This document shows, piece by piece, positions 3,353-19,575 of a stretch of 20,240 nucleotides of DNA. Source of the DNA: a virus; the IMG/VR virus record IMGVR_UViG_3300004806_000112, positions 1 through 20,240 of that record; one strand, given 5' to 3'. The notes under the pieces were generated by a model. It did no database searches. It was given only the letters and a program-made list of their open reading frames with translations, and was not told the DNA's origin. Made by a program: the position numbers and the translations under genes. How positions within the stretch are numbered: position 1 is the stretch's first letter; every line of letters begins with the position of its first letter.

Positions 3353-3358
3353 ATAAAT

Positions 3359-3366
3359 TATTTAAC
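3359..3366 (-). promoter_or_regulatory. Late-promoter-like motif before gp53-like gene
   Basis: The minus strand reads GTTAAATA, followed by 6 nt (ATTTAT) and the ATG at 3352. It matches six of eight positions of T4 late consensus TATAAATA, including the whole TAAATA core. Confidence 0.6.
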
Positions 3367-3388
3367 AATAGCTTATTGTTTATCTATG

Positions 3389-4918
3389 TTACTGAAGACC
3401 GTTAAAATTAGCTGGAATATTAGGAGTTTGTGGTTGAAAACCAGCTACTGGATTTACATTAGGATTACCTCCTGTAATTATATTATTCGGTGAAGGCTGA
3501 AGTTGTTGTACTGGGTTGGTAGCAGTATTAGTAGGTAGTGTGACCGGTGTAGGCGCGGTAGTTGGAGCCGTACTAGCTTCTACAAGACTATGAGGTCCGA
3601 TCATGTGCTGCATAAAGTTTTTTGAATTTGCGAGCATGCTCTTTAATGAAATTGTTACTTTGTATGCGTCAGGTATAATAGCGGGTATAGATTGATAGCT
3701 TGCTGCAGTTCCTAGATCTTGTCCAACGTCGCCTAAGTCTGATGATACGGTATCTGCTACTGGAATTTTAATATTCAATTCACGGCGTGACCCCATAAAT
3801 TCAATATTAAGGGATTGAATAAAACAGTAAGGGAAGAATTTAGCGCCTGGCACTTCAACTTGATAAATTACAGGCTGGTCGACGGTATTAGCACTCGTCT
3901 TTCCTGGCCTGTTTTGATAAAGAAGTAAGAATAAAAATTGCCAATTTTTAACAACATCACTATAGGATACTTGACCAGTATTAATTAACGGAAATTCCAC
4001 GGTAATATCCTCACCTTCAGTCGGATAATTATAGTATTTTGTCTTTTCAATAAATGTAATTTGTGCTGGGTTATTAAGTGTGGATATAAAGCTAGCCACG
4101 TCTGTTGCAACTCCTGCTGCTGCGCCAATTAATCCTTGAATAAGAGCGTTACCTGTACTGTCGCCTGCACTATTCATAAAATCATTTCCTTGATTAGCAT
4201 GATTATTATTGAAGTATGGTAAAATATAAACCCAACCTGTAGGATCGGTGAGATAGAGATTTCTATAGGGAGCTAACCACGGACTTGTATTAACGGTAGG
4301 GTTATTATCATCACCAGGTGATGTTATTTGTTTTACATATGCGCCAGCTGGTGAATTGGCGAGAGTATTAAAAACATTTTTTGCCGCTGCATCAGAGCTA
4401 GCATAGACACCCTTCGCTTTTGCAGCTAGATTACTGGTTGTATCTTGTAAAGCTTGTTGAGCTGCTTGTCCATTTGCAGGATCAATATAATACTCCGATA
4501 TATTTGGGGCTGTGGGATTTGTTACTGCATTTTCTGCACTACTTACTAGGTCACTTATAAACTCAGCTAATTTAGTATTTTGTGTAATTTCTTTTATATT
4601 TTGAATAGTTTGTGCTACACCGCTACGGGCCTGACCAAGAGAGTATTTTAACTGAGCTACTAAAGCATTAGTTCTCAACTTACGCTCGGTGAGAATAATT
4701 CTCGGTGTTTCAGCTCGAGCTATATCACCAGCGGGTGAATACGTCCAATAAAAATCACGTACTACGTTGATTGAATTTGTTTTGCGTGGCTTACCGGGTG
4801 CTGTAAAATTACTAGCTAACTCACTCGTTGGTGTAGGTATTGGTAAAGCAATAACATCTGGTGATATTCCACCGGTAGTTGCTGAACTATTAAAGCCCCA
4901 AAGGTATTGCGATGCCAT
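3389..4918 (-). CDS. Putative baseplate/tail structural protein
   Basis: A 509-residue protein of unrecognised family. It is Ala/Asn/Thr/Pro-rich, with a small hydrophobic stretch around residues 255-280 (GLIGAAAGVATDVASFISTL) that may be a membrane-like or buried helix. The better ordered part is residues about 280-440, where PFFPYCFIQSLNIEF-like and PDAYKVTISLKSMLANSKNF segments suggest a beta-sandwich similar to tube-cap or tail-completion proteins. The C-terminal 70 residues are Pro/Asn/Thr-rich and look disordered. Placement between the coiled-coil protein and the gp53-like gene supports a baseplate role. It begins ATG after an ATTAAATA motif 5 nt upstream and is preceded by a 39-nt gap, so it probably has its own promoter. 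Confidence 0.6.
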   Translation of the reverse strand: MASQYLWGFNSSATTGGISPDVIALPIPTPTSELASNFTAPGKPRKTNSINVVRDFYWTYSPAGDIARAETPRIILTERKLRTNALVAQLKYSLGQARSGVAQTIQNIKEITQNTKLAEFISDLVSSAENAVTNPTAPNISEYYIDPANGQAAQQALQDTTSNLAAKAKGVYASSDAAAKNVFNTLANSPAGAYVKQITSPGDDNNPTVNTSPWLAPYRNLYLTDPTGWVYILPYFNNNHANQGNDFMNSAGDSTGNALIQGLIGAAAGVATDVASFISTLNNPAQITFIEKTKYYNYPTEGEDITVEFPLINTGQVSYSDVVKNWQFLFLLLYQNRPGKTSANTVDQPVIYQVEVPGAKFFPYCFIQSLNIEFMGSRRELNIKIPVADTVSSDLGDVGQDLGTAASYQSIPAIIPDAYKVTISLKSMLANSKNFMQHMIGPHSLVEASTAPTTAPTPVTLPTNTATNPVQQLQPSPNNIITGGNPNVNPVAGFQPQTPNIPANFNGLQ

Positions 4919-4923
4919 ATTAA

Positions 4924-4931
4924 TATTTAAT
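4924..4931 (-). promoter_or_regulatory. Late-promoter-like motif before the 509-aa gene
   Basis: The minus strand reads ATTAAATA, then 5 nt (TTAAT) and the ATG at 4918. The TAAATA core of the T4 late consensus is intact. Confidence 0.6.
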
Positions 4932-4957
4932 ACACGTACAAAATGTTAGCAGTACTT

Positions 4958-7120: not shown

Positions 7121-7126
7121 TAAGAT

Positions 7127-7134
7127 TATTTAAT
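7127..7134 (-). promoter_or_regulatory. Late-promoter-like motif before the coiled-coil gene
   Basis: The minus strand reads ATTAAATA, then 6 nt (ATCTTA) and the ATG at 7120. Confidence 0.6.
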
Positions 7135-7158
7135 GGCTAAACAATTGATCTGTGTTCT

Positions 7159-7908
7159 TTATACGCTAAAGAAACTACTATCAACTTCCACACTAATTTC
7201 GTTTAATGTGACAAATTTGCTTTCAAACGCTCTGTAGGACTTAATATAATCTAAAATTTTACCTGTAACAGTTGAAGGAAGCTGCTCGGTTACAGTAATC
7301 TTATCGTCTACCTTTAATTCACTAAAATTAACTATTTGCTCGCCACTTTCCGTCTTAAACGTAATTGATTTAATAAATTTAACAATTTCATGAACAAATA
7401 ATTCTCCAACAAGAGTCTTAACATCCTTGTCGGATACATTTTTTAATTTAGCTGTGGTGGTTAGGTTGACATCTCTATCAACACCGAGTGTTGGTGCTTC
7501 GAGATTGACTGTTAAGTCTTGAACGTTGAGGGTTGTACCGAGTGACTCAGGACTAATATCAATTGTCTGTGTCTGAGTAATGACATCATTAAGATTAATA
7601 CCATTATATGTTGAGCTCAATCCATTTGCTCTTAAGGAAAGAGCAATAGCTGATCGATCGAACGTATATAGTTTATTAATATCTAAAATATCAATAGCAT
7701 TTTCTTGAATGATGTTATAAAACTTTGTAGTGAAGGAGAGTTTAGTTAAAGTATCGTCAATCGATGACTTGAGAAGATCTTTTTGCTGCTTGAGGTTAAG
7801 ATTTTTAAATCTAACAGCCTTTTTAAGCGAAGGAATATATACACTAATTCCAGCTGACGCGTTTAATGTTTCTAATTGCTTAAGAATGTCACTAACATTA
7901 CTACTCAT
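7159..7908 (-). CDS. Baseplate protein, T4 gp26/gp51-like (copy 1)
   Basis: A 249-residue protein whose first 100 residues follow the T4 gp26/gp51 pattern: a beta-hairpin (ISVYIPSLKKAVRFKNLNLK) followed by a 'K.LL' helix and a helix ending in a FDRSAIALSLRANGLSS segment. In T4 these proteins belong to, or help assemble, the central baseplate hub. Residues about 190-240 (LPSTVTGKILDYIKSYRAFES) align with the equivalent part of the gene next to it, so the pair looks like a tandem duplication. It begins ATG, 12 nt after the stop of copy 2. The upstream TATATA with a 5-nt gap is a one-mismatch version of the late motif. Which of the two T4 proteins it corresponds to cannot be told. Confidence 0.65.
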   Translation of the reverse strand: MSSNVSDILKQLETLNASAGISVYIPSLKKAVRFKNLNLKQQKDLLKSSIDDTLTKLSFTTKFYNIIQENAIDILDINKLYTFDRSAIALSLRANGLSSTYNGINLNDVITQTQTIDISPESLGTTLNVQDLTVNLEAPTLGVDRDVNLTTTAKLKNVSDKDVKTLVGELFVHEIVKFIKSITFKTESGEQIVNFSELKVDDKITVTEQLPSTVTGKILDYIKSYRAFESKFVTLNEISVEVDSSFFSV

Positions 7909-7920
7909 ACTAATATATAA

Positions 7921-8808
7921 TTAAGGTTGTAGCGGATTCAAGGCTTTATTACCCTTACTCATTCTATCTTTTTCTTGTCTCTTTTCTTCTTTAAACAGAT
8001 TAATGTAGATATTAAGTTCAGCAGGGGTTGCGTCTCTTATAAGCTCGTAATCAATGTTTAAATGATTAACTAAAAAATACTCTAGTTCATAAAGTGACAT
8101 TAGATTGCGCTTAAAGCATATTTTTAAAAAATTTATAATAGAGCTAGAAAATAAATTCAATGGTATCTCAATAGCTTCATTCATGGCAAAGGGTGACTTT
8201 ACTGAAAGAATTGTAACGTCAGAAAGACTTTTACTGAAAAAATTAATGTAATCGCTGATATCCTTTAATACAGCAGCTGGTAGGTGATCGGCTATCTCCT
8301 CCTTTACGTTTGTTACATCTTCATTATTAAGAATAATTTTACGTATAACAGTATTAATAATAGAAAGATCTGTTATACCTACATTTAAAATGCTAGGCAT
8401 TCCTAGTTCAACAATAAGGTTACCATTATTATATTTTTTAGTTATGGAGTAGACATCTTCTGGTAAATTAAGATTTTGAAGCCTGTCAATAAGATCAACG
8501 AGTTTGACAGAGAAATTAAAAGTATTTTTAGTTTCCGGGCATGTACCGGTTAATTCAAGCTCTGGTGATACACAAACCGATCTTACTGTAAGAAGAAGAA
8601 TAAGCTTATCTAAAAATGAATAATCCTTTACATTCTCTTCTTTAATACAAAGATCTTTTAAGAGTTCATCAAAGAAACTAATAATAATTTCATCATTATC
8701 ATTGGTAATGTTCTTAACAAGATGTTTATATCGATTAAACTTTAATTCTTCTATTTGTACAGTCTTTTTCTGTCCAGGTAGATAGACTGTGTAGGTAAAC
8801 TGTCTCAC
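7921..8808 (-). CDS. Baseplate protein, T4 gp26/gp51-like (copy 2)
   Basis: A 295-residue protein of the same family as the gene downstream. It opens with TYTVYLPGQKKTVQIEELKF, which aligns position by position with the opening of copy 1. A helix SFLDKLILLLTVRSVCVSP is followed by the 'LTGTCPETKNTFNFSVKL' strand pair typical of gp26-like proteins; only one Cys of the usual zinc-like pair is kept. The C-terminal region (LPAAVLKDISDYINFFSKS) also matches copy 1, and a charged tail is added. The start is GTG at 8806-8808, chosen because the family hairpin begins at once. A one-mismatch late motif (TAAGTA) lies 6 nt upstream. Confidence 0.65.
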   Translation of the reverse strand: MRQFTYTVYLPGQKKTVQIEELKFNRYKHLVKNITNDNDEIIISFFDELLKDLCIKEENVKDYSFLDKLILLLTVRSVCVSPELELTGTCPETKNTFNFSVKLVDLIDRLQNLNLPEDVYSITKKYNNGNLIVELGMPSILNVGITDLSIINTVIRKIILNNEDVTNVKEEIADHLPAAVLKDISDYINFFSKSLSDVTILSVKSPFAMNEAIEIPLNLFSSSIINFLKICFKRNLMSLYELEYFLVNHLNIDYELIRDATPAELNIYINLFKEEKRQEKDRMSKGNKALNPLQP

Positions 8809-8844
8809 AAGGAATACTTAAGTCATTGACCGAAAGACTCAAAT

Positions 8845-9738
8845 TTAAACAGGTGATTTAAAGCCTTGGAAAAGGCTTGGATTACCAATTTTTGGTAATC
8901 CGTATTTTGCAAAGTTATTAATAATCTCACCAATCGGTAGATATAAATTATTTGCTACTGTATAGTTTGAATACGTCCAGCGGGTATTATGTACAACCAT
9001 CTTTTCTTCTGTATAATCTAAAGTTTCTTCGTTGACAGTAAATGGTACACAATTATAAAAACTCCATACCTTTCTTGGAATCATTGATACACCAGCCCTT
9101 GAACGAGTGTATTGCATTACATGCATATTACACTTCATGTTTTTAATAGCTTGGGTAACATCATTAGGGTCTCGAGCAACAAGACCAAAGTGTGCAGCAA
9201 GAATGACCCAAGGTCTTACTACGAAATCAATAAACGATGTATTTGTTTCTCTAAATCCAATATCTAAAACCGGTGCTTCATGATTTCTACTACCACCTAA
9301 GACACCGGGTAAGAATCCCCTATTATTATCTACATACGCACTTTCTACATTCCATGCTTCATTAGGGATAGTAATATTAGCAGCGAATAAACAACCAACA
9401 ACTTTTTGTAATGGGTAAGCTGTTAAAATATTCTTAGCCTCATCGATATCAAACTCGTTACCAGATGCATTACGCTCTAATCCTTGAATAATAGAAGTTT
9501 TAAGACCGGGTGGATATTGATCAATAAGAACAATCCACTGGGTAGTCATGGGTATGGCCGTAAACCATGACTCCATTTGGTTTAAAAAATAATCCCTTGC
9601 GCTAATAATCGGGACCGCAGGTAGATTTAAACCAAATAGCTGGGATATTTGAGGGGCAAATAATGGGTTTGACCCTGTACCAACACCGGCTATGTTTTGA
9701 CCTAAACTATCAAGTGCACTACTAAAGGGATCGTTCAC
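8845..9738 (-). CDS. Tail-tube cap/initiator-like protein (gp54/gp48-type candidate)
   Basis: A 297-residue structural protein. The first 45 residues are low in charge and probably flexible. Residues about 165-260 contain FIDFVVRPWVILAAHFGLVAR and, further on, PRKVWSFYNCVPFTVNEETLDY with a final antiparallel strand. This is the tube-fold pattern (an arm strand, 'D..i.PW' helix and a 'NC.P..v' strand) also found in baseplate proteins that cap the tube. T4 gp48 and gp54 start the tail tube on the baseplate, and a gene next to the tube gene suits that job. The start is GTG; the reading frame and spacing to the upstream GCTAAATA motif (5 nt) support it. gp48 versus gp54 cannot be decided by eye. 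Confidence 0.55.
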   Translation of the reverse strand: MNDPFSSALDSLGQNIAGVGTGSNPLFAPQISQLFGLNLPAVPIISARDYFLNQMESWFTAIPMTTQWIVLIDQYPPGLKTSIIQGLERNASGNEFDIDEAKNILTAYPLQKVVGCLFAANITIPNEAWNVESAYVDNNRGFLPGVLGGSRNHEAPVLDIGFRETNTSFIDFVVRPWVILAAHFGLVARDPNDVTQAIKNMKCNMHVMQYTRSRAGVSMIPRKVWSFYNCVPFTVNEETLDYTEEKMVVHNTRWTYSNYTVANNLYLPIGEIINNFAKYGLPKIGNPSLFQGFKSPV

Positions 9739-9743
9739 CTAAT

Positions 9744-9751
9744 TATTTAGC
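9744..9751 (-). promoter_or_regulatory. Late-promoter-like motif before the tube-cap gene
   Basis: The minus strand reads GCTAAATA, then 5 nt (ATTAG) and the GTG at 9738. Having the motif at the usual distance also supports the GTG start. Confidence 0.6.
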
Positions 9752-9767
9752 TTAGGTAGCTACTTCT

Positions 9768-10334
9768 TTAGGGGGATGTACGTGTGAAGTAGTGGTAAGC
9801 CATTGTAGCAGTGAACTCAATGGTCTGACCTGTACCACCGGCAATATTGTAGGTAAGAGCACCAACACTACGCGGTGATACACCAACAAGATTATACTCA
9901 GCAATACGATTCATCTTGTTGTCAAGCTGAATAAGGTTAATGACTGAAGTTTGTTTAGGTGTGAGATAATCACCGGTACTATTAGCATCATCAAACGTGT
10001 AGCGTGACCAATCTTCAAACTTCTGTCTAATTTGTGAATTAGCATCAGCGTAGAATAACATGCTATAGGCTTCAGAACCGGGATAAGTGGCATTACCAGG
10101 AAGGTTAAACTGGAGACCCATATAAGGAACGGGTACGTTAGTAATTGATCTTTCAGGTAAAATTGCTGTCTTGACGTAAACTAAATCGGTATCACCGAAA
10201 GTAATTGTCTGTCCAGCTGCATTTGTGGCGCCACCAGTCGTAATCGACAATACACGGAAGTTAAAATCGCGTGCGAAGTCTCTATTGGCTGCTGTGCTAT
10301 AGAAGTTTTGGATGAGTTGGTTTGTATCGGCCAT
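9768..10334 (-). CDS. gp19: Tail tube protein (gp19)
   Basis: A 188-residue protein of the gp19 family that stacks in hexameric rings to form the inner tail tube. Seen directly: an N-terminal strand-rich RDFNFRVLSI, a FGDTDLVYVKTAILPERSI segment, the VPYMGLQFNLPGNATYPGSEAY motif that is highly characteristic of the family, an IRQKFEDWSRYTF helix and a final strand pair (TIEFTATMAYHYF). T4 gp19 is 163 aa, so the length fits. It lies directly downstream of the sheath gene, as in T4. An ACTAAATA motif 5 nt before the ATG gives it its own probable late promoter, fitting a very abundant protein. Confidence 0.9.
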   Translation of the reverse strand: MADTNQLIQNFYSTAANRDFARDFNFRVLSITTGGATNAAGQTITFGDTDLVYVKTAILPERSITNVPVPYMGLQFNLPGNATYPGSEAYSMLFYADANSQIRQKFEDWSRYTFDDANSTGDYLTPKQTSVINLIQLDNKMNRIAEYNLVGVSPRSVGALTYNIAGGTGQTIEFTATMAYHYFTRTSP

Positions 10335-10339
10335 ATAAT

Positions 10340-10347
10340 TATTTAGT
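10340..10347 (-). promoter_or_regulatory. Late-promoter-like motif before the tail tube gene
   Basis: The minus strand reads ACTAAATA, then 5 nt (ATTAT) and the ATG at 10334. It lies in the 16-nt gap between sheath stop and tube start. Confidence 0.6.
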
Positions 10348-10350
10348 TGT

Positions 10351-12759
10351 TTATGCTACGATCTCAGAGAAGTTTTGATTTGTTCTTGTAGCGTAGAAGT
10401 TAACAAGAACGAATTCGGCTGTTCTGACTGGCTTGATATAGATATCAACTACGAGTGAATTGTCGTCAATAACAGTTGGTGTGTTATTTCTTTCATCGCA
10501 GATTAACAAGTAATCGTAGATACCAGATGAATTCTTAGCATTATCAAAGATCGGAGTCAAGACGTTCTTAACTTGCGTTCTTGTAAAGAGCGTATTAGGC
10601 TCGAATACGTAGTATCTTGCAACAGCGTTGGTCTGATTCTCGAGAGTCAAGAACAATCTACGAACGTTAATGCGATCGAAAGCACTTGGAATCTTTTGCA
10701 TCGTCTTTTGACCGTATACCACATACCCTTCATTCGGGAAGAATGCAATTGGGTTAAGTGAGATCTTATAGAGTTGATCGCGCTGCTTTTGCTTTGGATA
10801 GATTGCAATGTCAGCTACACCGTTGAGTACACCGCGACGGAATCCAGCAGGAGCTGTCCAGGGCTGATAATTGGCATCTGTATTGGCCATAATGGCTGCA
10901 ACAAAGCCCGAAGATGGTACCCAGACAAGACGGCTTGAGGATTGATCAGGTACTTGTACACAATTTGCATATACAGCGGTATAGCTATTATTAATAAAGC
11001 TAAACTGGTTATATAACGGCCAGTAAATGTACGTGCTAAAGTCCTTCGAAGGATCGTCTAATGTCTTGACATTGTTTTGTACAAAGATGTTTGTAAGAGG
11101 ATCAGCAATAAAGAGGTGGTCCTTACGCTGAAGTGCAGCGAAGTTTACAAACTGTGTTGCGACAGCCTTATAGTTAAGAGCAATATTTGCACTAGCTCCG
11201 GTACCGTCTTGCGCTGTAAGCTGGAAGAAATCAGTACCTGTATAAGGAACGGTATCATCAAAGTAACCAGACGTTGCTGGGTTGAATGAATTGGCGTAAA
11301 TTGTACCAAGACCGGCTTCAACTACAACGGATAACGGATAAAGATCGGCATTATCCATGAGATTAAGCATGTTATTAACCTTTGTTGGTACGTCACCGAT
11401 TGTCTTTGTTGTTACAGTCTCAACAGCGTAGTCACCAAGAGCAACAAGGCTATTTGTTGATCCAAATTGATTGATAAGAGCGGTATAAGTGGCAGATGTT
11501 GCACCTGTACGAGTTGCGAAGGTGTCAATAAATCCGCCGTTGCCATTAGAGGAAAGTGCATCATAGGCTAAGGTACCAGCGCGAGCTGTATTCAAGAAAC
11601 GAATATTCTTATTAGGAGTACCACTAAGATTCAACCAAGATGTTGTATTCTTATTGGAAATGAACGGATTAACAAGAGCAACAATATTGTTTGAATTGTT
11701 TTCAACGTTTTCAATGAAGTAGCTAGTAGCAGGTCCGCCCTTAGGGTTATTAATCTGGCGATAATAATCGAATGAAGCGTTATAACCTTCTTGAAGAACG
11801 TAATCAAGCTGAATAGTATCAGGAGAGAATACAGACTGACGAAGTTTGAATACGCCAAGGTTAATTGTATCGTTGAATTGAACTGGAGATGTATCGAAAG
11901 TAGCGATATTCTCGACAACCTGTGATACACTACCGTTAGCTCCAAGAGTTGTAGCAGAAAGAGGGAAGGTTAAGCGCTGACTTGGTACGGTAACGTAATT
12001 ACTTGGTGTAATGTATCCGTTTGTATTAACAGATTGTACACTATTAAAGTCATCGTACTGAGTAGCAGGATTAAGTGCTGTATTATCAACAATACCGATA
12101 TAGGTACCTTCAAAACGACTATTAATAGAAGCCTGAGACTTGTTAAGAACAATTAAACCGGCTTGACCGAGGCTTGAAAGACTGGTAAAGGTGGTTGTTG
12201 GTGTAGCGCTACTTAATACACCAGCGTTCGTATATGCCCAAGTAGTAGGATCAGCAGCTGCGCTTAACCAGGTATAAGCACTACCACGAAGAATAGAAAG
12301 ATAATCGGACTCACTAAGTGTAACATGCGATGGTGCGCCGAAGAAATAAGTCTGCCCAGAAGCCGAAGCAGGGTAGCTAAGAACCGTTGAGGTAACAGTC
12401 GCAAAATTTGTACTACCGGCAGAAAGAGTAGCTGTTACAACAGGATATACAAGGGCACTATACTGGTTTGTTGTACCGAGACCTTGACCAGCACCATATG
12501 GAATACGATAGCAAGTAACATTCGCCGGTGACTGAAATACTGCTTTAGCAGACTGGTAGAAATAACGCTCAGATGCATTCGTTGGGGTACCGAAAATCTG
12601 TTCAAATTCAGATAATGTGCTTACCTGGATAGGTTCAGAAGATGGACCCTTAGCAGCAAAACCAGGAATTAAGACATTTGTTGGGGAAGCAAGATTTGCA
12701 GTAAGAGAAAGATCAGTTTCACTAATCTGTACGCCGGGACTTTGAATTATACGTGCCAT
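10351..12759 (-). CDS. gp18: Tail sheath protein (gp18)
   Basis: An 802-residue contractile sheath subunit. The N-terminus, MARIIQSPGVQISETDLS, is the conserved sheath opening ('SPGV...E.D.S'), followed by a GFAAKGPSSEPIQVSTLSEFEQIFG segment. The C-terminal 240 residues hold the conserved polymerisation domain: YIYWPLYNQ, VWVPSSGFVAAIMANTDANYQPWTAPAG, then GVADIAIYPKQKQRDQLY, NPIAFFPNEGYVVYGQKTM and a final VRTAEFVLVNFYATRTNQNF strand. It is longer than T4 gp18 (659 aa). The extra length lies in the middle (about 100-560), probably surface domains. Codon choice is more GC-rich and even than in the baseplate genes, as expected for an abundant protein. A CATAAATA motif lies 6 nt before the ATG. 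Confidence 0.93.
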   Translation of the reverse strand: MARIIQSPGVQISETDLSLTANLASPTNVLIPGFAAKGPSSEPIQVSTLSEFEQIFGTPTNASERYFYQSAKAVFQSPANVTCYRIPYGAGQGLGTTNQYSALVYPVVTATLSAGSTNFATVTSTVLSYPASASGQTYFFGAPSHVTLSESDYLSILRGSAYTWLSAAADPTTWAYTNAGVLSSATPTTTFTSLSSLGQAGLIVLNKSQASINSRFEGTYIGIVDNTALNPATQYDDFNSVQSVNTNGYITPSNYVTVPSQRLTFPLSATTLGANGSVSQVVENIATFDTSPVQFNDTINLGVFKLRQSVFSPDTIQLDYVLQEGYNASFDYYRQINNPKGGPATSYFIENVENNSNNIVALVNPFISNKNTTSWLNLSGTPNKNIRFLNTARAGTLAYDALSSNGNGGFIDTFATRTGATSATYTALINQFGSTNSLVALGDYAVETVTTKTIGDVPTKVNNMLNLMDNADLYPLSVVVEAGLGTIYANSFNPATSGYFDDTVPYTGTDFFQLTAQDGTGASANIALNYKAVATQFVNFAALQRKDHLFIADPLTNIFVQNNVKTLDDPSKDFSTYIYWPLYNQFSFINNSYTAVYANCVQVPDQSSSRLVWVPSSGFVAAIMANTDANYQPWTAPAGFRRGVLNGVADIAIYPKQKQRDQLYKISLNPIAFFPNEGYVVYGQKTMQKIPSAFDRINVRRLFLTLENQTNAVARYYVFEPNTLFTRTQVKNVLTPIFDNAKNSSGIYDYLLICDERNNTPTVIDDNSLVVDIYIKPVRTAEFVLVNFYATRTNQNFSEIVA

Positions 12760-12765
12760 ATAAAG

Positions 12766-12773
12766 TATTTATG
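12766..12773 (-). promoter_or_regulatory. Late-promoter-like motif before the sheath gene
   Basis: The minus strand reads CATAAATA, then 6 nt (CTTTAT) and the ATG at 12759. Seven of eight positions match T4 consensus TATAAATA. Confidence 0.7.
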
Positions 12774-12799
12774 GACTTCTGGAAATATTTTTTTAGCTT

Positions 12800-13423
12800 T
12801 TAGAGACTTTCTATTTCGTAAATGGGTGTGACGATGAGCTGAGAGTAGCTAATAGTCATTGTTGATTCAATTTCACCACCATCCTTATAATTATAGGTAA
12901 TTCCACCTAGATTTGTCGGAAATGCATCGATATATTTAAATTCAATGACACGTTTATTGTATTCATCTAAACCGTAAACTGATATTGTTGTCTTGTACTG
13001 ACTGTATTGACCTCTAGCACTGGATTGAACCACAGATTGTGTAGGATTTGTATAGTCATTACTGTCGTATATGTCTAGCTGATCATCATTTAGTAAATTA
13101 AGCCAGGTATAGATTACCCAGTAATTATTAAATCGGTTATCAACAATGAAGTCAACAGTAACTGGAGGATATGGGTCACGAGAGTGTGAAGTAACGGTTT
13201 GTGTCTGTCCAGCATAACGATTTTGCACTGCGGGAACAGAAATTTCAGGAATTACCGTACCAGCTACGGCAAATTGCATCGTATCGGGCTGAATATTAAC
13301 GTTATCACGTACAAATTTTGAAGTAATTTTCTTTAAAGCGGTTGGAACGTCTAGAACTAATAGAAATTTATCTTTTCTTGAAAGATTGAACGGACTTTGT
13401 GTATAATCAACAGCGTTTGACAT
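12800..13423 (-). CDS. Tail-tube-fold protein (gp19/gp54-related)
   Basis: A 207-residue protein that looks like a distant relative of the tube protein. Seen: a central VAGTVIPEISVPAVQNRYAG segment (the gp19 'a..iP...i....v.y.G' pattern), PPVTVDFIVDNRFNNYWVIY followed by a TWLNLL helix, and a C-terminal GGITYNYKDGGEIESTMTIS strand pair close to that of the tube protein (GALTYNIAGGTGQTIEFTATM). It could be a tube-terminator, a neck protein or a baseplate tube-cap protein; position between terminase and sheath does not decide it. It starts ATG 6 nt after the terminase stop. No clear TAAATA motif precedes it, so it is probably read through from the terminase promoter. Confidence 0.55.
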   Translation of the reverse strand: MSNAVDYTQSPFNLSRKDKFLLVLDVPTALKKITSKFVRDNVNIQPDTMQFAVAGTVIPEISVPAVQNRYAGQTQTVTSHSRDPYPPVTVDFIVDNRFNNYWVIYTWLNLLNDDQLDIYDSNDYTNPTQSVVQSSARGQYSQYKTTISVYGLDEYNKRVIEFKYIDAFPTNLGGITYNYKDGGEIESTMTISYSQLIVTPIYEIESL

Positions 13424-13429
13424 ATAATA

Positions 13430-15151
13430 TTAGCCTATTAGTTTCCAACCCTGTTCTTCCATCTCATTAATATCGGTTTTTTCTGGTCCATCACCAATAT
13501 CGAAGATAATAGGCATTGGAATACCTTCTTCTTTATTGATTTCATTATTGTACATGGAAGTAGGGTTAATAAAATATTTAATACCGTAATCTAAAGATTT
13601 GATATGAAGAGGCCGTTTATTGTCATCTAGATCGACAATTTCAAAGTACTTTTCTGTAATTTCATTCTCTAAAATCATTAAAGTCCAGATAAGACTCATA
13701 ACCCTATCATCTTGATTACCGTTGCCAGGTTTTGTGGACCATGAACCATTCGGATAACGAACAAAGTTTTTTAACTCTAGTAATGTTCTAAAATCTTTGA
13801 TTCTAACAACGTTAAGCTCATTCAACCAGTAACGCATATTCATTACACCCTTATATTTTGTGTTTGTATGGGCTACGACACCAGGTTTTGTAAAAACCTT
13901 ATCACCGGCCTTAGCTCCATAATATACAATATTTTCATAACCAATATTGTTTTTAAGTTGATCAACAACCTGGGCACCGCAATTATTTCTCTCAATTAAA
14001 GCTGGAGGGTTACCCCAATGCTGTAGGATTTCATGTAATTTTGTAGTAAAATTATACGGACTTATTTCATTATTATGATAAATTGCTACTTGTTCTATAT
14101 TACGTAAATCTGTAATATCCAGAACTTGTATAACAGAAGCTGCTTCACCGACACCTTCAGAAACATCGACTCCAGCTACATACAACCGTTCTTTATTTGG
14201 TTCACCCCATAGAAGATAATGGCCCTCATCAAATACAAACGTAGGCTCTCGACACTCTGACTTTAATCGATCAAAGAAAGCTTCATTAATAGCGCTTTCA
14301 CCGGATTGTAAGAAAGTATTACCAAACTCTTGATCAAATTTCTCTCTACTACCCATCTCTCGGATTGTCTTAAGCTTCCATTTTTCGTCTCTTCCGGGAA
14401 CCTCCCACCAATCTACACGTTCAGCCTTCCAGCCATTGTGCTTTTCAGGATCGTCTTCCATAGCACCTTCATATAAATCATGGAATAAATTACCGGTTCC
14501 GTTAGGAGTACTTGCTACAAAGATTTTTGATTTCTTAGAAGATGATATAATTGGATATACTGAAGCCCAGAATTCTTCTACTAGGTGGTTATCAATAAAC
14601 GCTAACTCATCAAGGAGAACTACGTTTACAGAATCACCACGACCGGCATCACTACTTGTTGTACTAATACCAATACTCGAGCCATTAGCTAGAGCCATTG
14701 ATGTTTTACCATATTCTAAAATACCGGGTTTTAGATAATTTGGTAACATTTCATATGCCATTCTAACACGTTTAAAAATATTAATAGCTGTAGCTTCTTT
14801 GTTAGCTACAATAAGAATACGTTGATCGGTTTGAAAGCATACCATCCAAAGAGCATAAATTGTAAACAATGTTGTTTTACCACTCTGACGAGAAGATAAC
14901 ATAACCACAAATCGATTATCGCGTAAAGATCGGAGGATTCGTTTTTGGAATAGATGTAGCTTAATTTTTATTTTACCTTCATCAAGGTTAGTAATAAAGA
15001 AAAAGTTTTCAGCAAAATAAAGTATATTCTTTTTACATTTATCTATATCCTTGATCCATTCAGGGTTTGATTCGTAGTCAAATAAAGCATCTGGTGTTGG
15101 TAACTTTTCATTACCAAGATAAAATTGCTGTTTCTCTTTTTTAGTAGCCAT
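13430..15151 (-). CDS. gp17: Terminase large subunit (gp17)
   Basis: A 573-residue packaging motor and nuclease. The ATPase domain shows Walker A SSRQSGKTT at about residues 86-94, Walker B VNVVLLDE at 175-182 (D181, catalytic E182) and coupling motif STPNG at 214-218. The nuclease domain shows an RNase H-like triad: D329 in AGVDVSEG, E387 in ALIERNN, and D481/D482 in GNQDDRVMS. T4 gp17 is 610 aa. It pumps DNA into the prohead at the portal and cuts concatemers. The gene is divergent from 15175 with only 23 nt between starts. That gap has no late motif facing the terminase, so its promoter is not evident. No small terminase is recognised in the window. Confidence 0.95.
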   Translation of the reverse strand: MATKKEKQQFYLGNEKLPTPDALFDYESNPEWIKDIDKCKKNILYFAENFFFITNLDEGKIKIKLHLFQKRILRSLRDNRFVVMLSSRQSGKTTLFTIYALWMVCFQTDQRILIVANKEATAINIFKRVRMAYEMLPNYLKPGILEYGKTSMALANGSSIGISTTSSDAGRGDSVNVVLLDELAFIDNHLVEEFWASVYPIISSSKKSKIFVASTPNGTGNLFHDLYEGAMEDDPEKHNGWKAERVDWWEVPGRDEKWKLKTIREMGSREKFDQEFGNTFLQSGESAINEAFFDRLKSECREPTFVFDEGHYLLWGEPNKERLYVAGVDVSEGVGEAASVIQVLDITDLRNIEQVAIYHNNEISPYNFTTKLHEILQHWGNPPALIERNNCGAQVVDQLKNNIGYENIVYYGAKAGDKVFTKPGVVAHTNTKYKGVMNMRYWLNELNVVRIKDFRTLLELKNFVRYPNGSWSTKPGNGNQDDRVMSLIWTLMILENEITEKYFEIVDLDDNKRPLHIKSLDYGIKYFINPTSMYNNEINKEEGIPMPIIFDIGDGPEKTDINEMEEQGWKLIG

Positions 15152-15155
15152 TTAG

Positions 15156-15163
15156 TATAAATA
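15156..15163 (+). promoter_or_regulatory. Perfect T4-type late promoter (TATAAATA)
   Basis: TATAAATA lies 11 nt before the ATG at 15175, in the 23-nt gap between divergent starts. The T4 late consensus is matched in full. Spacing is larger than at the other motifs, which would leave about 6 nt of 5' leader. Confidence 0.7.
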
Positions 15164-15174
15164 ATTAAGCATAT

Positions 15175-16152
15175 ATGAATAAAGCACGCAATCTCGTTGA
15201 AATGGGTGAATTTTACGCTTCTACAGTACTTACTGAAGCAGCTAAGAAGAACAACCTTAAAGGTATTGGTAAAGACACTTTTGCCATGGCAGGTAAGAAG
15301 ACATCTGATGTTGTTTTACCTAAAGGTTTTAAGACAAAAGCTTACGATAAGTGTGGACCTATGAGTAACGAAAATGAAAAATCTCTTGCTAAGCCTCTTG
15401 AGGCTAGAGACGCAAAGGGTAAGAAAACATTCTCCGGAGTAGAAAATCTTTCTTCAGCTTCAGAAAAAATGGAAGTGGAGACTATAAATAATTTTATGAA
15501 CAAATCTATTTTTGATCGCTTATATGAGGACGTAATGTCCGATAACATTCATACACCTGAAGATGCAGATATGCACGACGCCCACGCTCTTGACCTTCCT
15601 GGAGCTGAAGGACATGAAGATGGTGATGAAGTAACAATCACCCTTAGCAAGGAGCTTGCTGGTAAGCTTCACGACGCTCTTATGGCCGTTCTTGGTTCTG
15701 ACGAAGAACAGCACGGTGAAGAAGAGGGTGGTATGGAAGGTGAAGACGAAGGTGAAATGGAAGAAGATGATTCAATGAGTGCAGAAGCTACTGAACTCGA
15801 AGAAATCAAGATTCCCGGAACCGTTCACGGTGGTGGAAAGCATCCTTGGGAACTCGGCGGTGCTAAAAGCAATGTGGTCAAGAATTCCTGGTCATCACAT
15901 CACGTCGATGGTAAGATCGGTGAAAGTGAACTTGAAGGTCAAGAATCCGGAATCGGTGCTAAGGGCGCTAAGGTTCGTATTTACGGAGCTGCTGATGGAG
16001 TACCTGATACAGCTGACACAACACCAGTACCTGTTAAGCCAGTACCTGTTGATTCAAAGGTTTCGAAGAACGTTGGTAAGGTTCTTTTCGCGACTGGTAA
16101 GGACAACTATAAGGCTCCTAAGGGCCAGCTTCGCGACTTCCGTAAGCTCTAA
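15175..16152 (+). CDS. Acidic putative internal head / prohead-core protein
   Basis: A 325-residue protein of unrecognised family. Residues about 170-210 are extremely acidic (Glu/Asp runs such as EEEGGMEGEDEGEMEEDD), recalling the acidic prohead-core proteins of T4. The N-terminus MNKARNLVEMGEFYASTVLTEAA ends in LTE followed by Ala, matching the T4 gp21 prohead-protease rule (Leu/Ile-X-Glu, then Ala/Ser/Gly), as found in capsid-targeting sequences. A second candidate site is IGE/S at 248-251. Codon choice is markedly different from its neighbours: more AAG, CTT, GGT and GCT and more GC, suggesting high expression. A perfect late promoter and a strong terminator flank it, so it forms its own transcription unit. 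The function is inferred, not recognised. Confidence 0.7.
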   Translation: MNKARNLVEMGEFYASTVLTEAAKKNNLKGIGKDTFAMAGKKTSDVVLPKGFKTKAYDKCGPMSNENEKSLAKPLEARDAKGKKTFSGVENLSSASEKMEVETINNFMNKSIFDRLYEDVMSDNIHTPEDADMHDAHALDLPGAEGHEDGDEVTITLSKELAGKLHDALMAVLGSDEEQHGEEEGGMEGEDEGEMEEDDSMSAEATELEEIKIPGTVHGGGKHPWELGGAKSNVVKNSWSSHHVDGKIGESELEGQESGIGAKGAKVRIYGAADGVPDTADTTPVPVKPVPVDSKVSKNVGKVLFATGKDNYKAPKGQLRDFRKL

Positions 16153-16180
16153 TAAGTTAGATAGATCAAAAATTAAAATT

Positions 16181-16210
16181 AAGGGCCTTAGCAATAAGGC
16201 CCTTTTTTTT
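16181..16210 (+). terminator. Strong intrinsic terminator
   Basis: A perfect 10-bp stem AAGGGCCTTA / TAAGGCCCTT closes a GCAA (GNRA) tetraloop at 16191-16194, followed by eight T (16203-16210; the first two also pair in the stem). It sits 28 nt after the stop of the acidic protein and ends 1 nt before the next TATAAATA. Confidence 0.93.
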
Positions 16211-16211
16211 G

Positions 16212-16219
16212 TATAAATA
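16212..16219 (+). promoter_or_regulatory. Perfect T4-type late promoter (TATAAATA)
   Basis: TATAAATA begins 1 nt after the terminator T tract and ends 5 nt before the GTG at 16225. All eight consensus positions match. Confidence 0.72.
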
Positions 16220-16224
16220 TATGT

Positions 16225-16581
16225 GTGAATAGCTTTAAAGATCATTATAGAAAGTTTCATAAAGATGGCACAGCAGTAAAGCGTAGACACATTGATAGTA
16301 TGTTTACTAGTAATGCTACAGATCCTAATATGAAACATGCTAACGATATTGTACCAGTTTGTCATCGTGCTAATAATAACGCTGTTCAACCCTTTGAGGA
16401 ATTAAAACGAGTAGGAAGAGGATCAAAGCCTATTACCGGTGTTCAGGCTACCGCACTCGCAAAACAATTTGGTTTCAATATACCTTCACAAGCTAATGAG
16501 GAGGTAAAATGCGGTAATACAGGTATTAGTATTACTCGTCATCCAACTAATCCTAATTCATATCTTTTATATAAACGATAA
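16225..16581 (+). CDS. Small basic protein of unknown function
   Basis: A 118-residue protein I do not recognise. It is basic (many Lys, Arg and His), with an N-terminal YRKFHKDGTAVKRRH stretch, a middle FEELKRVGRGSKPITG loop and a C-terminal beta-like CGNTGISITRHPTNPNSYLLYK. A nucleic-acid-binding or head-neck role is possible but is only a guess. The start is GTG at 16225; an ATG at 16221 in another frame stops after three codons. A perfect TATAAATA 5 nt upstream supports the GTG. Its stop overlaps the start of the neck gene (TAATG), so the two are coupled. Confidence 0.65.
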   Translation: MNSFKDHYRKFHKDGTAVKRRHIDSMFTSNATDPNMKHANDIVPVCHRANNNAVQPFEELKRVGRGSKPITGVQATALAKQFGFNIPSQANEEVKCGNTGISITRHPTNPNSYLLYKR

Positions 16582-17321
16582 TGACTATTGAGACAAAAGA
16601 TTTCTATACTGGTAATCCTACCCCGCAGATCTATCCTGCGAGTATAGATTATAATACTAATCCATGTTTTCGGTTTACCGATAAAGGAAACAACGAGAAC
16701 GAGCGCATTTTATATTCAAATTATTGGCAAGAGCAAATTAGTCAATTTGGACAGCAAACGCAGTATTACGTAAACACCTTTAATACATTATCTGCTGATA
16801 TGCTATATGGTGAACAGCCAACTCAGCAATTCGCACCGCCCTTACCGATTATTCTCGCTATTAACTTAAATGAAAACGCACTTATGCTTAGTAAGTATGG
16901 GTTACTTTCAGAGGATGAAGTTACTGCGTTTATACCGTATAATAGTTTTTATACAACATTTGGTAATGGTGCAGAACCGAAATCAGGTGATGTATTTCAA
17001 TTATCTGAATACGGTCAAGATCGTGTTGATGGTCGTAATGGAAATTTTTATGAGATAACTGAGCGTCTTGATCAAGATATTGCCCAAATTAATCCTCTTG
17101 CCGGTCACTATGTATGGTTAATTAAAGCTAAGCGCTTTGAGTGGTCATTTGAACCTGGTCTATCGGGTGAAGCAGTTAATCAACAGGTATATGATGATAC
17201 TCTCAGCGCTACAGCCTCTGGTGCTCAAAAACCATATAGCTATAGCGCTGACGTTGAGTCTGTACAGGTATTTGATTATTCGAAAACTGATTATGGTGAC
17301 GTATATGGCGGGTACTCTTAA
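16581..17321 (+). CDS. gp14: Neck protein (gp14-like)
   Basis: A 246-residue homologue of T4 gp14 (256 aa), which with gp13 closes the filled head below the portal and provides the surface to which the tail joins. Features shared with T4 gp14 are a tyrosine-containing QYYVNTF segment, then DMLYGEQPTQQF (T4 has a similar 'D.i.GE' element), LSKYGLLSEDEVTAFIPYNSF (T4 'F.ff..FGm...DEvt..I...f'), and AEPKSGDVFQL (T4 'EPK.GDl'). Residues 170-195 (INPLAGHYVWLIKAKRFEWSF) form a conserved C-terminal strand pair. The start overlaps the stop of the 118-aa gene. Its stop overlaps the stop of the convergent gene on the other strand by 3 nt. A gp13 partner is not seen in the window. Confidence 0.85.
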   Translation: MTIETKDFYTGNPTPQIYPASIDYNTNPCFRFTDKGNNENERILYSNYWQEQISQFGQQTQYYVNTFNTLSADMLYGEQPTQQFAPPLPIILAINLNENALMLSKYGLLSEDEVTAFIPYNSFYTTFGNGAEPKSGDVFQLSEYGQDRVDGRNGNFYEITERLDQDIAQINPLAGHYVWLIKAKRFEWSFEPGLSGEAVNQQVYDDTLSATASGAQKPYSYSADVESVQVFDYSKTDYGDVYGGYS

Positions 17322-17590
17322 ACGTCTATTTTACCAATATCAGCTGCATATACCGGTAATTGTTCGTTACGTAATTTTGCAATAAAACTATCTGCAATCT
17401 TACTTGATTCAAATGGCATTTTGACACATGATCGATCAGTACCATCAAATGTATAAGTTAACAAATTGTTAATCATAGCAATATTTGTCAATTTATATAA
17501 GACATTAACAGAAAAATTATTCTCTGGTGATTTAAATCCTCGACGAGGATCTGGCCTTACGCTAAAGCTGGTACCAATGATGTAGTGCAT
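17318..17590 (-). CDS. Small protein of unknown function (90 aa)
   Basis: A 90-residue protein of unknown family. It looks beta-rich at the start (MHYIIGTSFSV), has a central YKLTNIAMINNLLTYTF strand pair and an F/AD-containing helix (ESSKIADSFIAKLRNEQLP). The start at 17590 lies 34 nt inside the end of the gene before it, an unusually long overlap, but the next Met (residue 39) would cut away half the protein. Its TAA shares the bases TTAA with the neck gene's stop on the other strand. No late motif is present, so it is probably read from upstream. Confidence 0.6.
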   Translation of the reverse strand: MHYIIGTSFSVRPDPRRGFKSPENNFSVNVLYKLTNIAMINNLLTYTFDGTDRSCVKMPFESSKIADSFIAKLRNEQLPVYAADIGKIDV

Positions 17591-17868
17591 GAAAGTTTAG
17601 GTGCTGTAATAGAATTATTGGCTTCAATTTCATCTAGATCAGATTTCATAGAAAGAAAACGTTCATCAATATACTTTTGAAATGCTAATGGCTTAATCCA
17701 ATCAATATCACCACTAATGGATCGCCTCTTAAGCTGTTCTACTCGGTTACCTACAATTTCAATACCTTCCAAGAGACATAGCCAACGAGCGTATTCGTCG
17801 TATGACATATTGTTTTCTTTAAGGCTATCGTTTAGTGATGTTGATACGTTTGATGGTGTCGATGACAT
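17557..17868 (-). CDS. Small helical protein of unknown function (103 aa)
   Basis: A 103-residue, mainly helical protein: a Ser/Asn-rich first 20 residues, then MSYDEYARWLCLLEGIEIVGNRVEQLKRR and a second helix (YIDERFLSMKSDLDEIE). No family recognised. The start is uncertain. From 17868 it overlaps the preceding gene by 44 nt. From the internal Met at 17808 it would begin 16 nt after that gene's stop, and the sequence before it is A-rich. The shorter form may be right. Confidence 0.55.
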   Translation of the reverse strand: MSSTPSNVSTSLNDSLKENNMSYDEYARWLCLLEGIEIVGNRVEQLKRRSISGDIDWIKPLAFQKYIDERFLSMKSDLDEIEANNSITAPKLSCTTSLVPALA

Positions 17869-18283
17869 ATCCGAGTATTATGTATGAAATTCGCTGCACG
17901 TCAAGAATATTCTTACCATCATTAAAGAAATTTAATAACGCGTGTGTAGCGTCAATACTTTGTATTGCACCATTGATGGATGTATTGAGCGTTTTAATCA
18001 ATTCGCTTTTAAATTCTTCCTTAACACTCGATACCTGTATTGCTTTTGAAAGTGTATCAATATAGAGAAGAAGTAAATTTTTAATAATATTTTTGTCTGA
18101 TGTCGTGTCTTTCTTATAAAAGACCGTACCCTCTTCAAGTGATTTATAATCTTGAAAGTCTAGTTTTTGCTTTAATGTATGTACTAACTCATCAAGAGAT
18201 GGTTGTTGTACAGGAGGAGTTATTGCAAATTGATCAGCTACCGATTCTTCAGTTAAATTGCTAATACTTTCAGGAATTTCCAT
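17825..18283 (-). CDS. Helical protein of unknown function (152 aa)
   Basis: A 152-residue, helix-rich protein without recognised motifs. It has an acidic N-terminus with PPVQQPS, a SLEEGTVFYKKDTTSDKN segment and helices to a basic C-terminus (YVIDTIKRINITKR). Its ATG lies 14 nt inside the membrane-protein gene before it, and no Shine-Dalgarno sequence is seen. It could be a head-assembly or packaging accessory protein given its neighbours (neck, core-like and terminase genes), but no evidence names one. Confidence 0.6.
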   Translation of the reverse strand: MEIPESISNLTEESVADQFAITPPVQQPSLDELVHTLKQKLDFQDYKSLEEGTVFYKKDTTSDKNIIKNLLLLYIDTLSKAIQVSSVKEEFKSELIKTLNTSINGAIQSIDATHALLNFFNDGKNILDVQRISYIILGYVIDTIKRINITKR

Positions 18284-18701
18284 TGTCAGTAATAATTAAA
18301 GGTACCGGGGCTGGTAGTGTTACACTAGCGATAGTATCGGTCATAAGCGCGGTTTCAGTAGCAATATACACACTTACATTCTTTTGACAATGATCGCATT
18401 TATACGTATTGTTTGTATTTAAAATAATAGGAACAAATTCAGTTTTCTTTAGAGAACAAGGACATGTAACATCAAGACCTTGAAGACTAAATTCCTTAAT
18501 TCTTTCATTTTCGAGTTGTTTATTTTTTAATTCTACATACGCACTAAGTGCTGTAATAAAGGCGTAATATAGTCCAAACTGAACAATGACACCGATTGGT
18601 ATACCAATTAATAATGATACGCCAAAGTGTTTAAAGAGTAGGCCGATTAAAATTGCCGTTACAACTAACGAAGTTAATTGTGTTAAAAGTTTTCCTAACA
18701 T
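18270..18701 (-). CDS. Membrane protein with zinc-ribbon-like cytosolic domain
   Basis: A 143-residue protein. Residues about 8-24 and 28-56 are strongly hydrophobic (LVVTAILIGLL and LLIGIPIGVIVQFGLYYAFI), forming two membrane helices. A charged helix follows (ELKNKQLENERIKEF). Cys80 and Cys82 (CPC) and Cys102 and Cys105 (CDHC) are spaced like a four-Cys zinc ribbon. The likely layout is a membrane hairpin with a small metal-binding domain on the inner face. The function is unknown. The start at 18701 follows the 131-aa gene by 30 nt. The upstream sequence is AT-rich (TATATTATAAT) but lacks TAAATA. Confidence 0.65.
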   Translation of the reverse strand: MLGKLLTQLTSLVVTAILIGLLFKHFGVSLLIGIPIGVIVQFGLYYAFITALSAYVELKNKQLENERIKEFSLQGLDVTCPCSLKKTEFVPIILNTNNTYKCDHCQKNVSVYIATETALMTDTIASVTLPAPVPLIITDNGNS

Positions 18702-18731
18702 TATTATAATATAATGTAAGAACTATAAAAA

Positions 18732-19127
18732 TCAAGTATCGTCCTGCTTAGCGCTTTTACCAAGAACAATGAATATTTGTTTAATATCGAGTAAAGCCTT
18801 ATCGAGACAATTAATAATTAGTTCTAATTCCTTTTTTGCCTTTTCATCTTCTCGTACAAGAGGATTGTTTAATGCAGTTCTATACGTACCGATAGCATTT
18901 GTTGCGTTTGTTAGTAGATCACCTAAAATAGCTGCCGTATTTGGCAGGGGGTACGGTAGAACATTATTTGCCTTTGCGTCGTCAGGGTTTTGTGTTTTAT
19001 GGCCCTTATCATTGCCAAGAAGGTCATTAAACTTCATTTTAATTGCACTAAATTCACGCGACGCTTGACCTGACACCCATTTATTATATACAGAAACCGT
19101 ATCTTCAAATAGAACCTTCTTTTTCAT
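18732..19127 (-). CDS. Helical protein of unknown function (131 aa)
   Basis: A 131-residue protein, unrecognised. It opens MKKKVLFEDTVSVYNKWVSG, has a Pro/Asn-rich loop (PYPLPNTAAI) near the middle, and ends in helices with a long Glu/Lys stretch (EKAKKELELIINCLDKALLDI). Its N-terminus lies beside the divergent start at 19162. An ATTAAATA motif sits 7 nt before the ATG, so it probably leads the transcript that covers the five small minus-strand genes down to 17318. Confidence 0.65.
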   Translation of the reverse strand: MKKKVLFEDTVSVYNKWVSGQASREFSAIKMKFNDLLGNDKGHKTQNPDDAKANNVLPYPLPNTAAILGDLLTNATNAIGTYRTALNNPLVREDEKAKKELELIINCLDKALLDIKQIFIVLGKSAKQDDT

Positions 19128-19134
19128 GTAAAAT

Positions 19135-19142
19135 TATTTAAT
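19135..19142 (-). promoter_or_regulatory. Late-promoter-like motif before the 131-aa gene
   Basis: The minus strand reads ATTAAATA, then 7 nt (ATTTTAC) and the ATG at 19127. It faces away from another late motif only 6 bp to its right. Confidence 0.6.
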
Positions 19143-19148
19143 CTCTAC

Positions 19149-19156
19149 CATAAATA
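19149..19156 (+). promoter_or_regulatory. Late-promoter-like motif before the 137-aa gene
   Basis: CATAAATA is followed by CTATT and the ATG at 19162. The run matches the extended T4 late consensus TATAAATACTATT at 12 of 13 positions. The gap to the start is 5 nt. Confidence 0.72.
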
Positions 19157-19161
19157 CTATT

Positions 19162-19575
19162 ATGAGTTATTTTAAGTCGAGATTTGATTATATTTTGGAA
19201 GCTGATGTAGCTCCTACACCTGAACCAGCTCCTGGTACACCTGCAAATGATCAGGAAGCTATGGCGCAGAGTTTAGACACAGCAAAGCCAGCAGATTTCG
19301 ATGTCAAGGCCGCAGAAAGACAAACACGTATTGATCATGTTAAAGTTGAGCAAATTAATAGACTTCATGAATGGATTGGAAAGATTGATGACTTTATTAT
19401 TTTCTTAAATGATACAAATAGTGACTCAATGCAGATTCAGCTTCACTCAGCTCCTTGTGATACAATGTTTGAAAATATTGCAAGAAGTGAAAAGAAAAAG
19501 ATTTCTCGTCTTGCTGCCGATTTAGGTGGTCTTAGTCAGTCACTTAAAGGATATCTTGCTTCTGCAAACGACTAA
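19162..19575 (+). CDS. Putative internal head protein (137 aa)
   Basis: A 137-residue protein of unrecognised family. Its N-terminus MSYFKSRFDYILEADVAPTP has the layout of T4 capsid-targeting sequences (a short amphipathic helix ending in Ile-X-Glu and Ala, as in the T4 internal proteins). Cleavage after Glu13 would leave Ala14. A Pro/Ala/Glu-rich linker follows (APTPEPAPGTP), then helices with a charged core (KAAERQTRIDHVKVEQINRL) and a C-terminal RLAADLGGLSQSLKGYLAS. The internal-protein role is inferred from the N-terminus alone. Its stop overlaps the stop of the convergent primase gene (CTAA shared). Confidence 0.65.
   Translation: MSYFKSRFDYILEADVAPTPEPAPGTPANDQEAMAQSLDTAKPADFDVKAAERQTRIDHVKVEQINRLHEWIGKIDDFIIFLNDTNSDSMQIQLHSAPCDTMFENIARSEKKKISRLAADLGGLSQSLKGYLASAND

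Follow-up and report, generated by a model that had tools for sequence, protein, structure and literature searches.

An acidic protein of a T4-like phage with a candidate N-terminal capsid-targeting propeptide and a putative gp21-type cleavage site conserved in part of its family

The internal proteins of bacteriophage T4 are basic and carry N-terminal propeptides of 10-19 residues, which dock them on the core and are cut by the protease gp21 after L/I-x-E, while T4 gp22, with 576 copies per head, is also processed by gp21 (PMC9026906, in part). Internal proteins of the T-even phages are otherwise diverse (PMC3012670, in part). In SPN3US and phiKZ, head proteins are cut after Glu by a gp21-related protease, and the parts of PMC5694885 dealing with SPN3US give A-x-E as its motif and propeptides that are mostly far longer than the one described here. 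The mechanism of targeting and cleavage is already known from T4; among the literature matches listed, which cover few subscription journals, no earlier description of such tags from uncultivated T4-like phages was seen.

We analysed a stretch of 20,240 bases, hereafter the window, which is IMG/VR record IMGVR_UViG_3300004806_000112 from position 1 to 20,240. It is a 20 kb piece of a T4-like myovirus genome, with genes for the terminase large subunit, the tail sheath and two clear tail-tube proteins, besides a head-closure protein, baseplate proteins and a primase fragment. The terminase large subunit (TerL) was, among the tblastn matches listed, 32-39% identical to TerL of cyanophages, rhizobial phages and other T4-like phages, which placed the window in the T4-like lineage. 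The gene under study (the focus gene) is the divergent neighbour of TerL, and the features of this region are as follows.

13430..15151, minus strand: TerL, divergent neighbour of the focus gene (phrog_2, 8e-51; tblastn)
15156..15163, plus strand: TATAAATA, T4-type late promoter, 11 nt before the focus start codon (read directly)
15175..16152, plus strand: focus gene, 325 aa, candidate acidic head-core or internal protein (open reading frame, family alignment of 36, AlphaFold2)
15175..15237, plus strand: candidate propeptide or capsid-targeting sequence, residues 1-21, ending in LTE (sequence, alignment, low-confidence model helix 3-25)
15229..15240, plus strand: candidate gp21-type site LTE/A, residues 19-22 (rule from PMC9026906, in part; family conservation)
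15484..15537, plus strand: most conserved segment, INNxMNKSIFDxLYEDVM, residues 104-121 (family alignment)
15628..15696, plus strand: conserved EVTITLxxELAxKLHDxLMxVLG, residues 152-174, holding the best-predicted helix, 159-174 (alignment, AlphaFold2)
15700..15786, plus strand: acidic linker, residues 176-204, net charge -16, of varying length among relatives
15784..15798, plus strand: EATEL, residues 204-208; all 36 aligned members have the E, A and T and vary after them
15916..15927, plus strand: IGE/S, residues 248-251, not conserved (rule-fitting in 5 of 36 members)
16182..16209, plus strand: terminator-like hairpin and T-run 3' of the focus gene (by eye)

The focus protein begins MNKARNLVEMGEFYASTVLTE/A, and the open reading frame bore out the original prediction that Leu19-Thr20-Glu21 followed by Ala22 matches the gp21 rule; LTEA at 19-22 and IGES at 248-251 were the only [LIVMF]xE[AGS] matches in the protein. 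An acidic region had been placed at residues 170-210, and a strongly acidic stretch was indeed found there, at 176-204. Overall the protein has a net charge of -20 and a pI of 5.0, with -22 over residues 22-204 and +3 over residues 205-325, and the pI ranges from 4.4 to 5.2 across 38 family sequences. This acidity suggests a component of the core. The reading that we favour, and think rather probable, is that the abundant, acidic and largely unstructured focus protein would reside in the prohead core or the head interior, that its residues 1-21 would form a helical capsid-targeting sequence docking it onto the scaffold core, and that in the window's clade a phage gp21-type protease would cut after Glu21 during head maturation, the mature protein then starting at Ala22. 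Docking, cleavage, location in the head and the presence of the protease in the window's own phage are what we infer.

The propeptide would have 21 residues, as against 10-19 in the T4 internal proteins (PMC9026906, in part). Like T4 IPI, IPII and IPIII, the focus protein has a short N-terminal peptide ending in L/I-x-E/A and a gp21-type protease in its lineage; the T4 sites, as read from the record, are IAE/A at 8-11 in IPII and IPIII and ITE/A at 17-20 in IPI. Unlike these three, it is acidic instead of basic, is longer, has another peptide before the site, and belongs to a family in which the site was lost in some clades. With T4 gp67, which is acidic, and gp68 it would share a location in the core, and the rule sites of these two also lie near the N-terminus. 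The properties proposed for it, a core protein in many copies with gp21 processing, are also those of T4 gp22, which however has eight strict sites where the focus protein has one supported site. BLASTP found no similarity of the focus protein to gp22, gp67 or gp68.

The family of the focus protein is so far undescribed. The annotated phage collection held no relative of the whole protein (E up to 1) or of its middle segment (E up to 10), and neither the protein nor its family had a significant Pfam or PHROG match. In IMG/VR, 11 loci matched the protein and 44 its profile; removal of L123, L125, five exact duplicates and L150, which comes without the N-terminus, and addition of the window left 37 sequences, while the maximum likelihood tree has 36 rows, with L120 (partial) and L150 left out. 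The conserved N-terminal motif of the family is MNxxRxLxExGxxY. AlphaFold2 on the 36-row alignment gave a mean pLDDT of 51.5 and short helices only (3-25, 112-121, 128-138, 159-174 and 300-304), so that most of the chain is probably disordered as modelled; the model was kept out of fold searches, since matches are meaningless at such quality. No solved structure matched the focus protein (best E 0.56). Single family members matched DUF2884 (0.00053) and DUF2505 (0.0051), and no other member shared either. A late-transcription coactivator was considered and dropped as too weak, Pfam Trans_coact matching below the cut-off (E 0.076) and in 4 of 36 members (best 0.036). We also observed that the acidic linker of only some relatives (L002, L003, L005 and L007) carries Cys-rich inserts, CSHCGKLKSDCEC, CKCDDC, CKCNDC and CKCDKC, which are possibly small metal-binding knuckles.

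The focus gene adjoins TerL in the window and in two relatives, G002 and G004 (these three were checked gene by gene), as would befit a DNA-packaging accessory, either small-terminase-like or a partner of TerL. We regard this as improbable, because the window protein has no significant Pfam or PHROG match, is mostly without predicted structure, and combines the codon use of an abundant structural protein with a propeptide-like N-terminus. The small terminase itself was rejected, as comparison with T4 gp16 gave at best E 0.19 over 9 residues, a similarity which is not real.

The N-terminal site fits [LIF]xE/[AGS] at residues 19-22 in 20 of the 37 sequences, including the window, in two clades, with the variants LTE/A, LTE/G, LTE/S, FTE/S and INE/G (one sequence having Phe at P3). 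Within the window's clade and the second clade (INE/G) P1' is always small (A, G or S) and the residues downstream diverge. In the remaining 17 the site is altered or absent, P1' being Lys in seven and Asn in one, and nine having no Glu, with the segment there shortened; the N-terminal peptide is still recognisable in members without a fitting site. Cleavage is thus not essential to the family, and since other clades have kept the tag without the site, its conserved function is probably docking and not cutting. Three members have extra rule-like matches at 13-16, namely LYE/A (L124, L131) and VYE/S (L149). On the 36-row tree the site label needs three changes, against 12.3 with shuffled labels, which argues that the site was gained or lost rarely, yet did change. 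The same data can be read differently: the N-terminal helix might serve assembly or the binding of a partner and never be cut, LTE/A being incidental to it. The persistence of MNxxRxLxExGxxY in clades without the site and the 17 sequences that do not fit the rule are in keeping with such a helix, whereas the small rule residue always found at P1' in the window's clade and the INE/G clade speaks against it, and we consider it rather unlikely.

A four-residue rule with loose positions allows accidental matches; the chance per protein is about 0.03 near the N-terminus and about 0.5 anywhere in 325 aa, calculated from the rate in G002 (152 proteins, with 5.2 motif starts expected over 20 positions). 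In the window alone two proteins had the N-terminal motif against 0.73 after shuffling, which is not significant (147 of 1000 shuffles as high). By itself, then, LTE/A is only mildly unusual, and its weight comes from conservation and from the genomes of relatives. That it is pure chance, in a gene unconnected to head maturation, we hold to be highly improbable, because the site is conserved with permitted substitutions and the motif is enriched in the relatives' genomes.

The second site, IGE/S, for which repeated cutting had been suggested, did not hold up: the sequence is present at 248-251, but the column fits the rule in only 5 of 36 family members, leaving gp22-style repeated cutting without support. 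IGE/S is probably a chance match. A better internal motif is the invariant EAT at 204-206, yet it fits the gp21 rule poorly, P3 before E204-A205 being Leu in 10 of 36 rows and Ile in none as read from the alignment. A second E/A cut at E204/A205 is possible, or, because P3 is not conserved, EAT may instead be a binding motif.

A search for a gp21-like protease, which had been proposed as a check, gave a divided answer: no Peptidase_S77 gene was found within the 20 kb window fragment, but 5 of 32 relative records encode one (E 1e-34 to 3e-37). These are G002 (131 kb), G004 (199 kb), G021 (119 kb), G024 (193 kb) and G026 (98 kb), which make up five of the six relative records exceeding 98 kb, the remaining records being shorter; G014 (98 kb), a relative by its TerL, was searched and none was found. 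The proteases of G002 and G004, the two that were aligned, match T4 gp21 through the segments GELNHP and SSR, which we take to contain the catalytic His and Ser. In all five relatives gp22-like and capsid (gp23-like) genes lie within about 5 kb of the protease. The gp22-like proteins have four strict [LI]xE[AGS] sites in G002 and six in G004, compared with eight in T4 gp22, and each of the five capsid proteins has CFE/A (in G024 CFE/S) around residue 60, not far from the LTE/A of T4 gp23 at 63-66, although the rule does not provide for Cys at P3. A further small protein is encoded between the protease and scaffold genes of G002 and G004. Since the relatives carry their own gp22-like gene with several sites near the protease, the focus protein was ruled out as the scaffold, and it is better described as a putative protein of the core or head interior bearing a targeting propeptide. 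Of the predicted core protein cut in head maturation, the site in 20 of 37 sequences, the relatives' protease, the promoter, the acidity and the codons agree with the idea, which is qualified by the 17 sequences in which the site is altered or absent.

We then examined all N-termini for the motif [LI]xE[AGS] starting at residues 4-23, with the expectation taken from residues beyond 40 of the same proteins and one first-ATG gene caller applied to all genomes. In the five protease-bearing relatives pooled, 67 N-terminal motif starts were observed against 24.7 expected (Poisson P = 1.8e-12, which treats orthologues as independent), and 41 against 16.2 after removal of similar N-termini. Individually the counts were 16 vs 5.2 in G002, 17 vs 5.9 in G004, 16 vs 6.1 in G024 and 11 vs 4.1 in G021, and weak in G026 (7 vs 3.4, P = 0.06). 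Shuffling with the first-ATG caller gave the same picture, with 17 proteins vs 6.75 in G002 (0 of 1000 shuffles as high) and 17 vs 8.3 in G004 (2 of 1000). The first gene caller, with a Shine-Dalgarno-like choice of starts, was dropped because it misplaced starts, including that of the focus gene; with it, the N-terminal:rest rate ratio for [LIV] at residues 6-41 was 1.2 in G002, 2.0 in G004 and below 1 in the window. T4, tested over 60-110 kb only, had 13 N-terminal motif starts vs 3.7 expected, and lambda showed no N-terminal enrichment (0 vs 1.5 expected). No enrichment at the N-termini of the five genomes was seen for the reversed motif or when E was replaced by D, Q or N, and the K-for-E control was flat or near-flat in four of them and raised in G024 (14 vs 7.9, P = 0.03).

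In the pooled genomes P1' was enriched for Ala (35 vs 9.0), Ser (20 vs 8.7) and Gly (12 vs 7.0), and P3 for Leu (38 vs 12.1) and Ile (29 vs 12.7). The strongest enrichment, for Glu at P1, Ala or Ser at P1' and Leu or Ile at P3, comes near the gp21 rule. Other residues exceeded expectation as well, namely Leu and Arg at P1, Asp, Asn, Leu and Tyr at P1', and Thr and Gln at P3, the last two to the same degree as Ile. The motif occurred at the N-terminus of 63 of 792 proteins, at residues 44-63 of 37/792 and at residues 64-83 of 22/759, and from these internal segments a third to over half of the N-terminal matches are background. N-terminal [LI]xE with other P1' residues was somewhat enriched too (195 vs 142 expected), as a helix that is never cut would allow; against this, N-termini showed a specific excess of A, G or S after [LI]xE (odds ratio 1.98, P = 1.7e-5; 2.04, P = 4e-4, with similar N-termini removed), as the favoured reading of a cut propeptide would have it.

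The late promoter of T4 and cyanophages is TATAAATA/NATAAATA (PMC2984593, in part), which the TAAATA element found here resembles. In the focus family 33 of 37 members have TAAATA at 3-20 nt before the start, and TAAGTA was seen by eye in the other four. In G002, 35 start codons have TAAATA 4-14 nt ahead of them and only 6 have it at 15-33 nt; the numbers for G004 are 57 and 8, and the usual distance in both is 5-7 nt. Permuted hexamers were less concentrated before starts in these two genomes, except the overlapping ATAAAT. TAAATA at 4-14 nt preceded motif-bearing genes more often than others in four of the five genomes, with 9/14 vs 25/138 in G002, 8/15 vs 49/188 in G004, 8/16 vs 41/189 in G024 and 6/11 vs 28/121 in G021 (one-sided Fisher, uncorrected, P 0.0005 to 0.03), the link being weak in G026 (2/7 vs 21/93, P = 0.51). 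For the full octamer TATAAATA within 60 nt the figures were 3/15 motif-bearing vs 0/168 other genes in G002, and in G004 no link was seen (2/25 vs 13/224). In T4 (60-110 kb) 0 of 12 motif-bearing and 4 of 48 other genes had TAAATA at the 4-14 nt spacing, which is thus not a T4 feature. TAAATA stands mostly 5-7 nt before the starts of many virion genes (window 2990-19162; G002, G004), and at such a distance late mRNAs would have almost no leader; by eye, no Shine-Dalgarno sequence was apparent at TAAATA-preceded starts in the window, G002 or G004. A second TATAAATA at window 16212-16219 lies directly before a GTG-started open reading frame (16225; region 16212-16581), which begins MNSFKDHYRKFHKD, like T4 tag starts but without the cleavage site.

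High-expression codon use, also part of the original prediction, was found as well, the codons being close to those of sheath in the window and of capsid in the relatives. The focus gene ranked 2 of 16 other window genes in closeness to the sheath gene, and by similarity to the capsid gene, alone or with sheath, 6/125 in G002, 19/170 in G004, 1/183 in G024 and 1/126 in G021, whose copy of the gene is truncated at its 5' end by a piece boundary; the test covered these four relatives and the window, G026 being left out. Its codon use is near that of the capsid and scaffold genes.

The window holds a second gene with a targeting-type N-terminus.

19162..19575, plus strand: second gene, N-terminus MSYFKSRFDYILE/A, 137 aa (homologue comparison)

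Its 49 homologous loci gave 40 distinct sequences, of which 36 have [ILV][LI]E/A; in three of the other four, Glu is followed by Gln, and L224 has ALEQ. TAAATA stands upstream in 39 of the 40. By eye its tag resembles those of T4 internal proteins (MKTYQEFIAE/A, MKTFKEF...) in aromatic spacing, and relatives have starts which are closer still (MITFKQFITE/A, MLSFSQYLTE/A and MLTFKEYFLKE/G). The start MNKDxxLIFE/AYKK, or a close variant of it, recurs in several genes that are not otherwise alike, as an interchangeable tag would (G004 L101, L104 and L109; G024 120465-121385 and 181387-186043; G002 81809-82723). Proteins of about 80 aa, L097 (G002, minus strand), L168 (G021, plus) and L172 (G026, minus), have the targeting-like N-termini MSNFNKLVDQLLTE, MSKFNRLVEELLSE and MSIFHRIFESLLSE, followed by a near-copy of a stretch from the N-terminal region of the capsid protein, YGNQFPSQNDSAYAPxDAR, and a basic tail, and may bind where that capsid stretch binds. 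Twenty G002 and G004 genes whose N-termini look targeting-like, some of them lacking the strict motif, were compared with Pfam, and a single match, to DUF6321, exceeded its cut-off. Among the sub-threshold matches two were to RNA_ligase, in genes with rule-like N-terminal motifs, G002 66747-67856 (E 0.0012) and G004 87695-90271 (2.8e-5); if these are real, RNA repair enzymes might travel in the head.

Beyond the favoured reading we put forward, tentatively and as a possibility only, that these phages have a large set of head-targeted proteins with interchangeable tags and a gp21-type protease, the focus protein being an abundant, acidic and unstructured part of the core that receives the set, with the cleavability of its own tag gained or lost and its docking kept. 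The set would exceed background by about ten genes per genome in the three largest relatives; these genes would have unrelated bodies and often late promoters, and their tags would include MNKDxxLIFE/AYKK, MLTFKQFxxE/A, MxxFKxRFDYILE/A and others. Most tagged genes, which are without known function, would then be injected into the host. If the favoured reading is right, a simple N-terminal rule would predict which unknown proteins of a group of uncultivated phages are packed in the head and delivered to the host, in parallel to the anti-restriction and host-takeover proteins of T4, and would supply candidate tags for loading proteins into phage heads, while the clades that have the peptide but not the site would be a natural test of targeting without cleavage.
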